From NCBI RefSeq assembly GCF_003003885.1, contig NZ_PVWN01000002.1:62001-126000 (forward strand): a DNA stretch of 64,000 bases. The letters are read 5' to 3'. The translations under genes were made by a program, and so were the position numbers. Within the stretch, counting starts at the first letter, position 1; each line of letters opens with the position of its first letter. Positions 28,071-33,924 of the stretch are shown here, piece after piece. The notes under the pieces are model-generated. The model made no database searches, was not told the origin of the DNA, and was given only the letters and a program-made list of their open reading frames with translations. This DNA is from Chlorogloea sp. CCALA 695 (GTDB lineage: Bacteria > Cyanobacteriota > Cyanobacteriia > Cyanobacteriales > Chroococcidiopsidaceae).

Positions 28071-28373
28071 CTACAAAATTGGATTATGAACGGTAACTAA
28101 TTTTGTTCCATCAGGAAAAGTAGCTTCTACCTGTACATCGGCGATCATTTCTGGCACTCCTTCCATTACCTCGTCTCGTGTTAATAAAGTTGTGCCATAA
28201 CTCATTAGTTCTGCTACTGTACGCCCGTCTCTAGCGCCTTCTAAGATAGCGGCGGCAAGATAAGCCACTGTTTCGGGATAATTCAGCTTTAAACCTCTTT
28301 GCTTGCGTCTTTCGGCTACTAAAGCTGCCGTAAAAATAAGTAATTTGTCTTTTTCCTGGGGTGTAAGGTGCAT
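28071..28373 (-). CDS. ureA: Urease gamma subunit
   Basis: This complete 100-residue UreA starts [18 protein letters not shown] and has LKLNYPEAVA-like ([12 protein letters not shown]), [11 protein letters not shown] and the C-terminal VTVHNPI. It forms the trimeric urease core with UreB and UreC. It follows ureD by 7 bp, as in other cyanobacterial ureDABC clusters, but ureB and ureC do not follow: the next gene is convergent with a 2-bp gap. The rest of the urease genes must be elsewhere. Confidence 0.97.
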
Positions 28374-28380
28374 AATTTCT

Positions 28381-29232
28381 TTATAGTTGCCAAACTCTAG
28401 GCGGACAAATAGATCGGTTTAAATAGTGCGATCGCAATAACTGCCAAACTTCCGTAAACCAGTTTCGCACTTCTGTTGTAGAAGATCCACGATAACGACA
28501 CAATAAGCCTGTGGGTAAGCAAGTTACCCCTGCTTGGCTACTACTATGTTTGGGAAACAAAACCCTTGCTTTCTCTACTATTTCTGGTTCTACAGGTTGC
28601 CCAATCCAAGCTAAACTACCCACTATTGCAAGTCTGGCTAAACCATGAGGACTATCAATAATATTTTTTCCCCCAGGTAGCCATTGCCTGTCTATCCACA
28701 ATGGTAAGCCTTGCTGCCAAACTTCTGTAAAAGATTTCCAATCGCCAGTTAAAAACCTCTCCCCCCTAGCTGTGCGTCCAAATCGGGTAATTTCCCAACC
28801 TAACCATTTAGCGCCTGGTGCTAATTCAATGTGCAAGTCTTGCCGATAAACTGCCCCATCAAATACAATTGTTTCTTGAGGCAACCATTCTAAGCAAGCA
28901 TTAGTATCTACTTGCATTTGCATACTTTGAATTGCCTGCAAGCCATCACTACGATAAATTTTACCTGCTGTAGCGGTTGTAATTAAGGCTTGGGCGTTGG
29001 GCCGGAGATGAAAAGATAGATGATTGCGATCGCCTCCCACAATTCCCCCTGCCGTGTGCAACACTACGCTATGGCAAACCCCGCCTTCTGGATAAAACGG
29101 GCGCTGTACTTTTAGCGGCGCTTTCATTTGACTGTGAATTATCTGAGTTTTTCCCTGATGCTGGGCATAAACTAAGTTAAGGTTGCCATGCCAGTTATTA
29201 GATTTTTGTTCAACATTCCAAGAATTATTCAC
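28381..29232 (-). CDS. ureD: Urease accessory protein UreD
   Basis: This 283-residue protein is the UreD scaffold that helps load nickel with UreF and UreG. Typical segments are [47 protein letters not shown] and GRTARGERF. It is followed closely by ureA. Upstream on the same strand lies a DUF4926 gene, 33 bp away. No other ure accessory gene is in the window. Confidence 0.96.
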
Positions 29233-30311: not shown

Positions 30312-30959
30312 TTAGATTATCAGACCTTTGATAAAGTCTTGATAAAACTCTGCATGATCACCTGTAAAATTGCTCATCCCTTCCTTTGTTAAATATCCGC
30401 TTTTTTTATTGGTGTGCGGATCTTTTATGTAGCTATAGATAGACTTAGGATAGGTTGGATTTTCATGCCAACTAACATTAAATGCTGCATATTTAGGAAA
30501 AAATGTCAAGTCGGCGTAATCTGGAATGCGATCGCAAATCCACCAAGCTAAAGCCGTCCAATCTCCTGTTTTTTCGTAGTAAGGTATAAACGAAGTGACA
30601 ATAATGCAAGCTGTCGCGCCCATATAACCGTCTGCGTCTCGTACATCCCAAATATGTTTTGCATAGTTTGATTCATTTTTTGCACAGTTATATTCTTTTT
30701 CTGCGCCTTTATTGTTCACTTCCCGCGAACGATAAGCCGAACGAATGCTAATTCTTCCTAGCTGCTGTTGAATTGGTTCTAATACTTTTTCACATAAGTT
30801 TTTGCCAGAGGCGATCGCAAGTTCTGGATTTTCGGGAATGTTAATAATGTTTTCTATTTGAGAAATCTCTGAATAAAGAAACTCCCGCATAAAAAAGCTT
30901 TTGGATAATTGAACGCGACCTAATTCTTCCAATGCTTCCACTGTTTGCGGAATTTTCAT
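30312..30959 (-). CDS. M15-like peptidase domain protein
   Basis: This 215-residue protein resembles the M15 (D-Ala-D-Ala carboxypeptidase-like) fold: an N-terminal helical segment, GRISIRSAYRSREVNNKG (the family's SxYRS-N motif), then SNYAKHIWDVRDADG where His and Asp could bind zinc, and a Trp-rich C-terminal half with GDHAEFY. The usual SxHxxGxAxD is altered to AKHIWDVRDAD, so activity is uncertain. There is no signal peptide, which is odd for a cell-wall enzyme and leaves a phage-like or intracellular role open. It lies 114 bp after a methyltransferase gene on the same strand. Confidence 0.65.
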   Translation of the reverse strand: MKIPQTVEALEELGRVQLSKSFFMREFLYSEISQIENIINIPENPELAIASGKNLCEKVLEPIQQQLGRISIRSAYRSREVNNKGAEKEYNCAKNESNYAKHIWDVRDADGYMGATACIIVTSFIPYYEKTGDWTALAWWICDRIPDYADLTFFPKYAAFNVSWHENPTYPKSIYSYIKDPHTNKKSGYLTKEGMSNFTGDHAEFYQDFIKGLII

Positions 30960-31073
30960 AAAAATAGCTCTGTATGTGCGGCGGTGTCACCTTAAATTTC
31001 TGCGGGTATCGTCCAAGGTTGATAAGGCTAGTATACAAATTGTTATTAATCTCCAGCACCTGGCAATTTAAAA

Positions 31074-32789
31074 CTATAATTCTTTTTTAGCCAAAATCGC
31101 ATAATCATCCAATCCATAATGTAAATCGTGTCCTTGATTCAAATACTTACGTAGCATTACACTCATATGTGTTTGTGTGTGTAAATTTTCCTTAGCAAAA
31201 ATTCCGAAGTTAGTTCCTGAAGGTATTCTTTTACCTGTAGATGTCATATATTTGTACCACTCAAGCTTTAAACCCAACTCATTTATAAAATCTTTAACTA
31301 ACCTCTCTTCTTGATCCTGATTTTCCGTTTGATATCGACTATACGCTTGAAACAATCTTCTTCCTTGAACAATTATCAATATATATCCGTCGTCCTTCAG
31401 GCTTTCGCTAAATATTTTTTTATACACTTGATGGGATTTTATTCTCTGTTTTTCATCTGCAAAAATACAATGGGAAATTACAACAAAATCAAAAAACTTA
31501 TTAGGAAGTTCTCTATTTTCATTGCCATTATCGCCATAGCTAAATAAATCAATTGTCTTAAATCGGTAGTAGGTATTAACAGCACTGATATTTTGTTTTT
31601 CGATGTATTGTTTCCAAAACTCTAACCCGTGATGCTGTAATAAATTTTGTTGCTCTAAAGAACAGTAAGAAACATGGGTTTCAGGCAATGTAGTAAAATT
31701 GCCAGCACTTTTAAACAATGAAAATAATCCATAAATCATTGCCCCAGAACCCGCACCAATATCCAAAATATTAACTTTAGTCTGTAGTAATTTAGATTCA
31801 TAGACTAAAAACCAAGCTAAATAAGCACTGTATACTCCTTCTAAAAAATACCTCATAAAATATACATGAGGAGTTAAATAAGAGTTGTATTCGGGATCTC
31901 GACCGTTTTGTAACGAAGAAATATCTTTGTAAGTGCCTATTAAATGTTGTTTTAGTTCTTCTTGTGGCGTATAAAGTTCAAATTGCGCTTTCAAATAATT
32001 AACAATATTTTCTTCTAAATCATAAAATATTTCTTTATCAATACCAGTACATTGCAGCAATTTATCGTTAATTTCGTTAAACTTAAATTTAGCTTTTACT
32101 GAATCATTGAAATCTTTATTTTGAGCGAGTAATGAATTATCAACTAACGGTTTAGATATTTGATTAAGTAAAACCTGTTTTTCTTGCTTATAAGCCTCTA
32201 TTTGCTGTTGAATTGAGATAGCTTGTTGTTCTTTACGCTTTACTTGCTCGTGCAAATCTTCGGTTTGCCGCCTAGATATTTCTAATTGTTTTTGAACTGA
32301 ACTGCTTTCTTGTTTACGGATTTCTAGTTGTTGTTGAATCAAGATAACTTCATATTCTTTATGCTTTAATTGGTTGCCTAAACCTTCTATTTGTTCAATA
32401 GATATTGCTAACTCTTTCTGAAGCGAACCATTTTCTCTGTCGAGGTTTTTTAATTTCTGTCGAATTAAAATAAATTCTTCTTCTTTATGCTTTACTTGAT
32501 TATGTGTAGATTCTATAGATTGTTCAAGTTGCTTATATTTAGTAGTCAATTGCTCAATAAGTTCCAAATTTTGGCTTGTTTGAGAGCGCAGAACAAGGAC
32601 TTCTCTTTCATAGTTTTTTGAACTTTCTTCTGACTGAGTTTTATCTCTAAAAGCCTTTTCTAAAAGCGATAATTTTGCTCCTACTCTTTGTTTGTTTTCT
32701 AATAATTCTTGAGCTACTTGAATATTGTTTTGATTAAGTGCGGCCCTAAATTTGCGACCTTGCAACCAATTAGTAAGCGGATTACTCAT
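31074..32789 (-). CDS. Coiled-coil protein with C-terminal SAM methyltransferase domain
   Basis: This protein of about 571 residues has two parts. Residues ~25-215 form a long coiled coil made of repeated QxxxxxKEEExxxIxQxL-like units (QVKHKEEEF, QLKHKEYEV, QVKRKEQQA). After a linker, a helical region (PHVYFMRYFLEGVYSAYLAW) precedes a class I methyltransferase with motif I NILDIGAGSGAM (about 341-352) and a later FDFVVISHCIF motif. The ATG at 32789 is preferred over a TTG upstream. It overlaps the radical SAM gene stop by 8 bp, so the two are translationally coupled. Substrate unknown; I recognise no named family. Confidence 0.8.
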   Translation of the reverse strand: MSNPLTNWLQGRKFRAALNQNNIQVAQELLENKQRVGAKLSLLEKAFRDKTQSEESSKNYEREVLVLRSQTSQNLELIEQLTTKYKQLEQSIESTHNQVKHKEEEFILIRQKLKNLDRENGSLQKELAISIEQIEGLGNQLKHKEYEVILIQQQLEIRKQESSSVQKQLEISRRQTEDLHEQVKRKEQQAISIQQQIEAYKQEKQVLLNQISKPLVDNSLLAQNKDFNDSVKAKFKFNEINDKLLQCTGIDKEIFYDLEENIVNYLKAQFELYTPQEELKQHLIGTYKDISSLQNGRDPEYNSYLTPHVYFMRYFLEGVYSAYLAWFLVYESKLLQTKVNILDIGAGSGAMIYGLFSLFKSAGNFTTLPETHVSYCSLEQQNLLQHHGLEFWKQYIEKQNISAVNTYYRFKTIDLFSYGDNGNENRELPNKFFDFVVISHCIFADEKQRIKSHQVYKKIFSESLKDDGYILIIVQGRRLFQAYSRYQTENQDQEERLVKDFINELGLKLEWYKYMTSTGKRIPSGTNFGIFAKENLHTQTHMSVMLRKYLNQGHDLHYGLDDYAILAKKEL

Positions 32790-33702
32790 AACCAAATCCT
32801 TCTTTACCTTCTTTAATTTCTACGCCTGGAAGTTGAGATAGTAATTTTTCTTTGAACATTATATAGCTTAATTGCTCGTCGTTATACCAGCAAGAGTATT
32901 TTTGCTTGATTTCTTCAGCTTCCTTGCGAGTTCCTGCTACAAGGGAGCGGCTATGACTGGCGTGAAATTCTTGAATAACAATTCTATCAGCAATTTTTAG
33001 CTTGTCAATAAAAGCGGCTTCATCAGATGGCAATGTAGGAAGCAAAGGCGTAATTGTAATAGAAATTTTTGGTTGATAGCCTTTTAAAGGATCGATTCTT
33101 TGTCTGATTGCTTTTATGGCATTAAGTCTAGCTTTAATACTAGGCGATCGCGGTTCAAAATCTTTTCTCACAGATTCACTACCTGTAGGAACACTCATAT
33201 TGATCCGCAAATACTTAAATCTCTGCAAAATATCAATGTCTCTAATAATTATCGGACTGCGAGTTTGAATTACAAGTATGGGGCAATATTCACGCATTAC
33301 CTCTAACAACTGGCGAGTTATTTGTGTTTTTGACTCGATTGGCTGATAAGGATCGGTAACACTACTCATATAAATAGTAGGAGGCTTATCTGGATTTTTC
33401 TGATACCATTTATCCAATTCTTTTGCTAAGATGTCTGCCGCATTTTGCTTAACAATTACCCACTTACCCCAGTCTTGACGCATCTGACTATTGGGACTAA
33501 ATGCCGCCGCATAACAATAGCTACATCCATATTGGCAACCCCGATAGGGATTGAGTGTAAAATCGTAAGCTGATATAAATCCACTAGCTTTTGTTAGTAT
33601 CGATTTAGCATCTTGGGCATAGACATTGGCATCTCCAAATTTTTCTTTGACTAAACTTGTAGGTACTCCTTGGCAATATCCTTCATATTGAAACTTCGCC
33701 AT
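32782..33702 (-). CDS. SPL-family (Rv2578c-like) radical SAM protein
   Basis: This 306-residue protein has the radical SAM [4Fe-4S] motif GCQYGCSYCYA with cysteines 56, 60 and 63, preceded by the FTLNPYRGC stretch typical of the spore-photolyase-related SPL family. Later, IYMSSVTDPYQPIE and IQTRSPIIIRDIDIL are also typical of this branch. Members cleave SAM to a 5'-deoxyadenosyl radical; most Rv2578c-like proteins have no known substrate. It is the first gene of a minus-strand group with a coiled-coil methyltransferase (8-bp overlap). DNA repair or RNA/protein modification are both possible. Confidence 0.88.
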   Translation of the reverse strand: MAKFQYEGYCQGVPTSLVKEKFGDANVYAQDAKSILTKASGFISAYDFTLNPYRGCQYGCSYCYAAAFSPNSQMRQDWGKWVIVKQNAADILAKELDKWYQKNPDKPPTIYMSSVTDPYQPIESKTQITRQLLEVMREYCPILVIQTRSPIIIRDIDILQRFKYLRINMSVPTGSESVRKDFEPRSPSIKARLNAIKAIRQRIDPLKGYQPKISITITPLLPTLPSDEAAFIDKLKIADRIVIQEFHASHSRSLVAGTRKEAEEIKQKYSCWYNDEQLSYIMFKEKLLSQLPGVEIKEGKEGFGYE

Positions 33703-33924
33703 ATTTAAACCTGTGAAAGTGCAAAATTTATCGCCATTGCTTTATTAAGATTAACTTTAATTTTCTAGCTTGAGTTAACTTAGTTTTCAAGATAACCGAG
33801 TGCTTTATAAAATTGCCTCTAATCTTAGCAACTGCTGAAATATCTAATAATTAATTGGCTGGGAACTTTTTATTCTATATAGATTAATATTAAAATATGT
33901 AAAGTACGCTTTCATAATTCATCT

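Follow-up and report, generated by a model that had tools for sequence, protein, structure and literature searches.

What do two overlapping genes, one for a radical S-adenosylmethionine (SAM) protein (rSAM) and one joining a coiled coil to a methyltransferase (MT), do together in a cyanobacterium? The question is raised by a 64,000-nt stretch of DNA from Chlorogloea sp. CCALA 695 (contig NZ_PVWN01000002.1 of assembly GCF_003003885.1, positions 62,001-126,000 of the forward strand), which is referred to below as the window. Both open reading frames (ORFs) lie where an original prediction, made from the sequence alone, had placed them and, as it described, an rSAM gene of the spore photoproduct lyase (SPL) type overlaps the MT gene by 8 nt. 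The features of the pair are the following.

32782-33702, reverse strand: rSAM gene, SPL/PA0069-like, the upstream member of the pair (306 aa; ORF, PF04055 at 3.8e-11)
33514-33537, reverse strand: CxxxCxxC cluster motif of the rSAM (C56, C60, C63), invariant in 52/52 aligned rSAMs
32782-32789, reverse strand: 8-nt overlap ATGAGTAA, made up of the MT start codon and the rSAM stop codon
31074-32789, reverse strand: coiled-coil MT gene (571 aa from the ATG at 32789; ORF, AlphaFold2 model)
32625-32789, reverse strand: conserved N-terminal helical segment of the MT, about residues 1-55 (alignment consensus with near-invariant columns; predicted helices 4-19 and 23-35)
32145-32627, reverse strand: lengthened coiled coil of the MT, about residues 55-215, with a 42-residue internal repeat; shorter in relatives
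31077-32117, reverse strand: Rsm22/METTL17-like MT domain, residues 225-571 (structural match, and alignment with the partner protein of genome G384 described below)

A TTG at 32795 is an alternative start of the MT and would give a protein of 573 aa.

The original prediction took the two proteins for partners and proposed a search for adjacent homologues across genomes, which we carried out. Loci were collected by a pattern scan with an MT-domain alignment and confirmed by tblastn; the scan was non-exhaustive and gave at least 65 loci in named genomes, all of them cyanobacterial by record title. Co-occurrence was scored in a survey of 386 genomes spread over the phylum, in which rSAM was counted at E < 1e-60 (29 genomes; 40 were found at 1e-30, and the 11 weak ones, all of family f31, were dropped). 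The MT was found in 28 genomes, the rSAM in 29 and both in 26 (Fisher p 7e-35). The two genomes with MT only hold fragments (G065) or a 66-residue remnant (G108), and the three with rSAM only are G176, where the rSAM is read in two frames and an N-terminal remnant of the MT is left, G384, where the rSAM has a different MT-bearing partner, and G390. Among the 65 loci an rSAM match was present in 61; those without are L037 and L077, which lie at contig ends, and L058 and L084. The exact 8-nt overlap of MT start and rSAM stop was seen in 48 of the 61 loci with an rSAM match, and the 13 others include two Pseudanabaena (1 nt), Hyella (18-nt gap) and Okeania/Trichodesmium (gaps of several hundred nt or more). 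The ratio of nonsynonymous to synonymous substitution rates was about 0.10-0.25 for rSAM and MT alike in the pairs compared, showing that both genes are under purifying selection.

Taken together, our results show that rSAM and MT form a real, tightly linked module, which is cyanobacterial as far as we searched. Homologues of the two genes are mostly, not rarely, adjacent, and the partnership is borne out by adjacency, overlap and co-occurrence, although the link is not absolute. From this arrangement we infer that translation of the two genes may be coupled. A literature search of titles and abstract openings found no published description of such a pair. As a separate observation, one locus (L065 5623-8397) has a tandem pair of MT genes behind one rSAM gene.

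The only Pfam match of the window MT was to Methyltransf_23, and it was weak (0.008); this was also the best Pfam match in the MT family (17 of 57 members, best 1.6e-4), which fits no NCBIfam family. The 57 aligned sequences comprise the window MT and those of 56 of the 64 loci L022-L085, chosen at a length of at least 415 aa. An AlphaFold2 model made from this alignment (mean predicted local distance difference test (pLDDT) 86.6) has two long helices (42-119 and 124-211) followed by a Rossmann domain. In VIA-align the top eight rows for this model were chains of mitoribosome small-subunit assembly entries (Z 16.5-17.6, root-mean-square deviation (rmsd) 3.5-3.9, 240-260 residues aligned), the best having Z 17.6, rmsd 3.9 and 260 aligned residues, and the next row had Z 14.5. 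One entry title (8om2) names METTL17/Rsm22; the identity of the other chains is taken from PMC9892005, which lists these entries, places Rsm22/METTL17 in such small-subunit assembly intermediates and states that it binds small-subunit rRNA. Yeast Rsm22 methylates mitochondrial tRNA in vitro (PMC8171064). According to that paper and PMC11046306, what defines an Rsm22 protein is a cysteine cluster together with an OB-type domain at the C-terminus, parts which bind RNA or hold Rsm22 together on RNA.

This likeness was further supported by a divergent pair in G384 (L179 2763-5709), where an rSAM 41% identical to that of the window is followed by a 660-aa protein with an MT domain. The domain passes PF09243 (1.3e-6, 28.5 bits, cut-off 23), and hhalign of the MT alignment against this partner gave a probability of 94.5 and an E value of 7.7e-8 over 76 columns, including the DPxY motif and the glycine motif. 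The N-terminal part of the partner is propeller-like (weak Pfam match, 4.6e-4, below cut-off). No second pair of this type was found in the 386 phylum genomes, 9 genomes of its family, plasmids or viral contigs, so the G384-type variant rests on one genome; the one other match in this search was a short protein of G298 (3.9e-4).

The MT of the pair thus shares with Rsm22/METTL17 its nearest solved fold by VIA-align, a Rossmann MT with preceding helices, and a related partner protein that passes PF09243. It differs in having neither the four-cysteine cluster nor the OB domain nor a PF09243 match, and in that its gene adjoins an rSAM gene. The window MT had no match to PF09243 at E 1, this profile was not among the best 25 of the 35 Pfam families matched by the 57 members at 0.1, and a Pfam Rsm22 search over related genomes matched other methyltransferases, never the MT of the pair. 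Sequence searches of solved structures gave nothing useful. Judged by its predicted model, the MT is Rsm22-like, not Rsm22.

The original prediction saw in the long coiled coil a device that could dock the enzymes on a large substrate. As a general feature this was not upheld, since the 56 relatives selected at 415 aa or more have 426-468 aa, as compared to 519 aa in G015 and 571 aa in the window, and the window coiled coil is an expansion of a 42-residue repeat (self-identity at a lag of 42, 37%).

The rSAM was placed in the same way. Its best NCBIfam matches are PA0069 (136.3 bits, cut-off 360), Rv2578c (99.2 bits, cut-off 430) and mobile-pair B, TIGR04470 (93.5 bits, cut-off 410), all far below the cut-offs, and no SPL profile was among the NCBIfam matches of the window rSAM up to E 1. 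An alignment of 52 sequences (the window rSAM and 51 from loci L022-L085, taken at a length of 295-325 aa and with ATG as start codon) gave an AlphaFold2 model with a pLDDT of 83.6, for which SPL was the best match both in Foldseek (E 5e-7) and in VIA-align (Z 14.9, rmsd 4.5, 256 aligned), followed in the latter by lipoyl synthase (Z 14.0) and RlmN (Z 12.1). SPL is a DNA enzyme and RlmN an RNA enzyme. Apart from the CxxxCxxC motif no cysteine is found in more than half of the 52 rows (position 10 is Cys in 26/52); C140 of the solved SPL, which we take to be its catalytic cysteine outside the cluster, has no counterpart conserved above half of the 52 rSAMs. The rSAM thus has in common with SPL and the PA0069/Rv2578c proteins the CxxxCxxC motif, the nearest fold and the nearest NCBIfam profiles, but it scores far below the cut-offs and its conserved cysteines are the three of the cluster only. 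Among the papers listed by a literature search, no functional study of radical SAM proteins of the PA0069/Rv2578c type was seen. Compared with the radical SAM mobile pair A/B (TIGR04471/TIGR04470), the rSAM resembles protein B, but it falls short of the family cut-off, its partner is a methyltransferase and not a second rSAM, and the MT was not found on plasmids or phages.

Of the arrangements described so far, DUF5131-TcmP comes nearest, being also a two-gene neighbourhood of an rSAM and a second protein. TcmP (three-Cys-motif partner), presumably an MT-like protein, is encoded in 12 of 60 genomes of the window's order. At the 11 TcmP loci inspected, six have a DUF5131-like rSAM alongside and five an rSAM related to that of the pair (probability 99.1); the profile scans were run on one and two of these loci. 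The latter loci (L185, L190-L193), with TcmP beside a PA0069-like rSAM instead of DUF5131, show a second kind of rSAM neighbour for TcmP. Neither protein of our pair belongs to this arrangement by test. The MT does not align to TcmP (hhalign probability 0.3), and TIGR04474 (TcmP) was not among the matches of the 57 MT members at 0.1. The rSAM aligns to DUF5131 only over 92 columns around the cluster (probability 82) and scores 22.4 bits against a cut-off of 28.9, so both were rejected as homologues.

On this basis our preferred reading, held tentatively, is that the pair is a two-enzyme nucleic-acid modification module. The rSAM (SPL/PA0069 group) and the Rsm22-like SAM methyltransferase would have a substrate in common. 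This is most likely a nucleic acid, since such are the substrates of the nearest relatives of both enzymes, and probably RNA, which we favour over DNA because of the MT. The DNA-repair or helicase surroundings of two of the five plasmid relatives examined, described below, and the related rSAMs beside TcmP also speak for this reading. The rSAM would generate a 5'-deoxyadenosyl radical at the CxxxCxxC cluster and alter an unreactive base or sugar carbon; methylation by the MT would follow at this site or at one next to it. The variable N-terminal part of the MT, which is a short helical/coiled-coil part, a long coiled coil or, in one genome, propeller-like, may set the oligomer state or the docking.

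Several observations weigh against this reading. The sequence link from the MT to Rsm22 runs through a single protein, the G384 partner; an hmmsearch with the MT profile missed that partner at E 1, and a search with the partner missed the family MTs at 0.001. In the Foldseek ranking Rsm22 came eighth, behind xanthosine, fatty-acid, tea N9 and mRNA-cap methyltransferases and others. The four-cysteine Fe-S/zinc cluster was not found in the MT family, where C441 is invariant, cysteines 247 and 321 occur in 34/57 and 50/57, these three are spread over the domain and no others are present in more than half of the sequences. No C-terminal OB-type domain was seen in the MT either, as the model ends two residues past the last Rossmann strand. 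Furthermore, an open rSAM frame goes with an interrupted MT, or with one of less than 415 aa, in 5 of the 65 loci (L021, L033, L039, L080, L085) and in G091; some of these cases are draft assemblies. The MT is thus more easily lost than the rSAM, and the MT of G018, at 79% identity in the domain the nearest relative found, contains stops (the genome is 73% complete). As no MT was found in G390 either, although it has the rSAM, the rSAM may be able to do without the MT in some genomes. The conserved neighbourhood of urease genes described below is left unexplained by this reading.

An alternative that stays close to this, and that we consider unlikely, is reversal of DNA lesions, with the rSAM as an SPL-like repair enzyme and the MT helping it or marking the repaired site. 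It draws on SPL as the best structural match and on the relatives of the rSAM on plasmids (72 records, of which the five nearest, 35-42% identical, were examined). On a Staphylococcus saprophyticus plasmid (L196 3380-6989) the rSAM gene lies among genes for a 2-oxoglutarate (2OG) oxygenase (Oxygenase-NA, damaged DNA, 6.9e-66), a DNA glycosylase, Ada and a methylated-DNA methyltransferase, a cluster that suggests a repair role for this rSAM group. On a Runella plasmid (L195 4974-8287) it shares 4 nt with a UvrD-domain helicase gene, and HipA genes adjoin; the other three of the five have no DNA-repair or helicase context. In addition, SplB-like rSAMs are described in SOS-linked operons in PMC3765255. 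Against repair stand the lack of an equivalent of the SPL catalytic cysteine beside the three cluster cysteines, the nearest fold family of the MT, which works on RNA, and lipoyl synthase, which lies within 1 Z unit of SPL. Moreover, no repair gene recurs beside the pair among the neighbour clusters listed.

A second alternative starts from the genes that do recur. The features of the window that it needs are these.

28381-29232, reverse strand: ureD, urease accessory gene downstream of the pair (PF01774, 2.7e-61)
28071-28373, reverse strand: ureA, urease gamma subunit, next after ureD (PF00547, 6.8e-47)
30987-33885, no strand assigned: accessory slot with the pair (blastn against the sister genome G002)

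Downstream of the MT the order is a 215-aa ORF (weak M15_3), DUF6883, DUF4926, ureD and ureA; upstream of the rSAM lies a divergent gene of the FAD/amine-oxidase type by Pfam, which had been labelled a carotenoid gene. The original prediction set the pair beside a small-DUF block, which is indeed there as DUF6883 and DUF4926, but it left unnamed the ureD and ureA next to it. The ureD and ureA of the window are unaccompanied by other urease genes and converge with an ATP-grasp gene; the same genome has ureB-ureC on a different contig (L175) and, on a third one (L176), a second ureABC set.

In neighbour clustering ureD, ureA, ureB and ureC were the most frequent neighbours of the pair. In 34 of the 65 loci the pair is followed within 6 kb by a urease gene, in every case on its own strand; several other loci have short downstream DNA. 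In 17 of the 28 MT genomes ureD follows on that strand at a distance of no more than 4 kb. In the other 11 it is 13 and 20 kb away on the same contig (two), 1.8 Mb away (one) or on another contig (eight). As a control, 19 loci from one clade of the rSAM tree were set against 27 from the second clade: no upstream gene was common to any of 486 locus pairs, whereas downstream genes, nearly all of them urease genes, were common to 209 of 513. The linkage thus goes back far and has survived where the rest of the gene order has changed. In 27 ureD-linked loci the rSAM and MT distances track those of ureD (r 0.91 and 0.90), which fits mostly joint descent.

It is thus conceivable, though in our view doubtful, that the target of the pair is urease, an accessory protein or a metabolite related to urea, and that this is why it has been retained in the urease cluster. 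The linkage across clades argues for this, as does UreD in 28 of 28 MT genomes, which is weak evidence because UreD is also carried by 96 of the 105 genomes that are related at the level of the order or more closely. Conversely, 139 of the 167 UreD genomes are without the MT, the 11 genomes above have the MT away from ureD, and the rSAM tree needs about 10 changes of urease linkage. Remnants of lost pairs precede an open ureD frame in G089, G108 and G176. These and the 139 genomes show that urease genes persist without the pair; among 20 MT-negative genomes checked upstream of ureD, a remnant was seen in G089 only. Control of the pair by NtcA was rejected, as 51 upstream regions held no excess of sites over shuffled sequence (strict form GTA-N8-TAC in 1, shuffled mean 3.7; looser form 8, as compared to 10.4). 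As an observation in its own right, short C-terminal remnants of the MT lie directly before ureD in genomes that have lost the pair (L164 756-827, L177 5653-5856).

The pair was also predicted to be accessory, on AT-rich genes, and to be followed by an M15-like peptidase as a third member. The first part agrees with our data: the 1-kb bins spanning 31-33 kb have the lowest GC of the window (0.32; remaining bins 0.352-0.473), the pair is patchy (28/386), and the slot differs in the sister species G002. There the flanks of the slot are 92% and 88% identical to the window at the DNA level (blastn), and between the upstream gene and the peptidase lie a TetR gene and a gene for a zinc alcohol dehydrogenase in place of the pair (ORFs, Pfam; L155 1061-2924). 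The slot between the conserved flanks is a swappable gene slot. The peptidase (30312-30959) did not hold as a third member. It has a weak Pfam match (M15_3, E 0.033), its G002 homologue has none at 0.01, and among 60 related genomes it occurs in 7, one of them that of the window. In the flanking DNA analysed for the 65 loci no match was found (0/65), and in G002 it adjoins the same DUF6883, DUF4926 and ureD genes, with two extra ORFs between, without the rSAM-MT pair. The same G002 locus (L155) has a PIN-domain gene between DUF4926 and ureD.

Tailoring of a peptide, another natural product or an unrelated metabolite is improbable. Many pairs of an rSAM and an MT act in natural-product pathways, and the fold list of the MT also includes small-molecule methyltransferases; against this, when ORFs of at least 80 aa beside the pair were compared across clades, none for a precursor, transporter or synthase was seen repeatedly, shorter precursors not having been searched for.

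Carriage by a mobile element or phage was rejected. The MT was not found in the plasmid, phage or viral collections searched, and the rSAM matches on viral contigs (L008-L020) are distant and SPL-like (24-34% identity). The MT profile found nothing in these 13 viral loci; this profile, having also missed the G384 partner, is not very sensitive. An anti-phage or mobile-element conflict system, for which one could cite the patchy presence, the frequent decay, the slot swap in the sister species, the distant rSAM relatives (mobile-pair B) on plasmids and the SPL-like rSAMs on viral contigs, is very improbable given this absence of the MT, the weak PADLOC matches (best 5.8e-4 for the rSAM and 9.4e-4 for the coiled coil), the lack of a recurring defence gene family among the neighbour clusters listed and the tracking of ureD distances, which would fit mostly joint descent.

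If the pair is a nucleic-acid modification module, it could, as a more speculative and rather unlikely extension, belong to an as yet undescribed class of two-enzyme nucleic-acid writers in which SPL-type rSAMs work with interchangeable MT-like partners (Rsm22-like with a coiled coil, Rsm22-like with a propeller-like part, or TcmP). The cyanobacterial form would then make a new hypermodified nucleotide and be wired into the urease cluster, linking the mark to the use of urea nitrogen. The conserved urease link is a concrete clue. A regular partner of the Rsm22 type narrows the possible chemistry of one subfamily of PA0069/Rv2578c-type radical SAM proteins, and a bacterial Rsm22-like protein without the cysteine cluster bears on how the Rsm22 family evolved.

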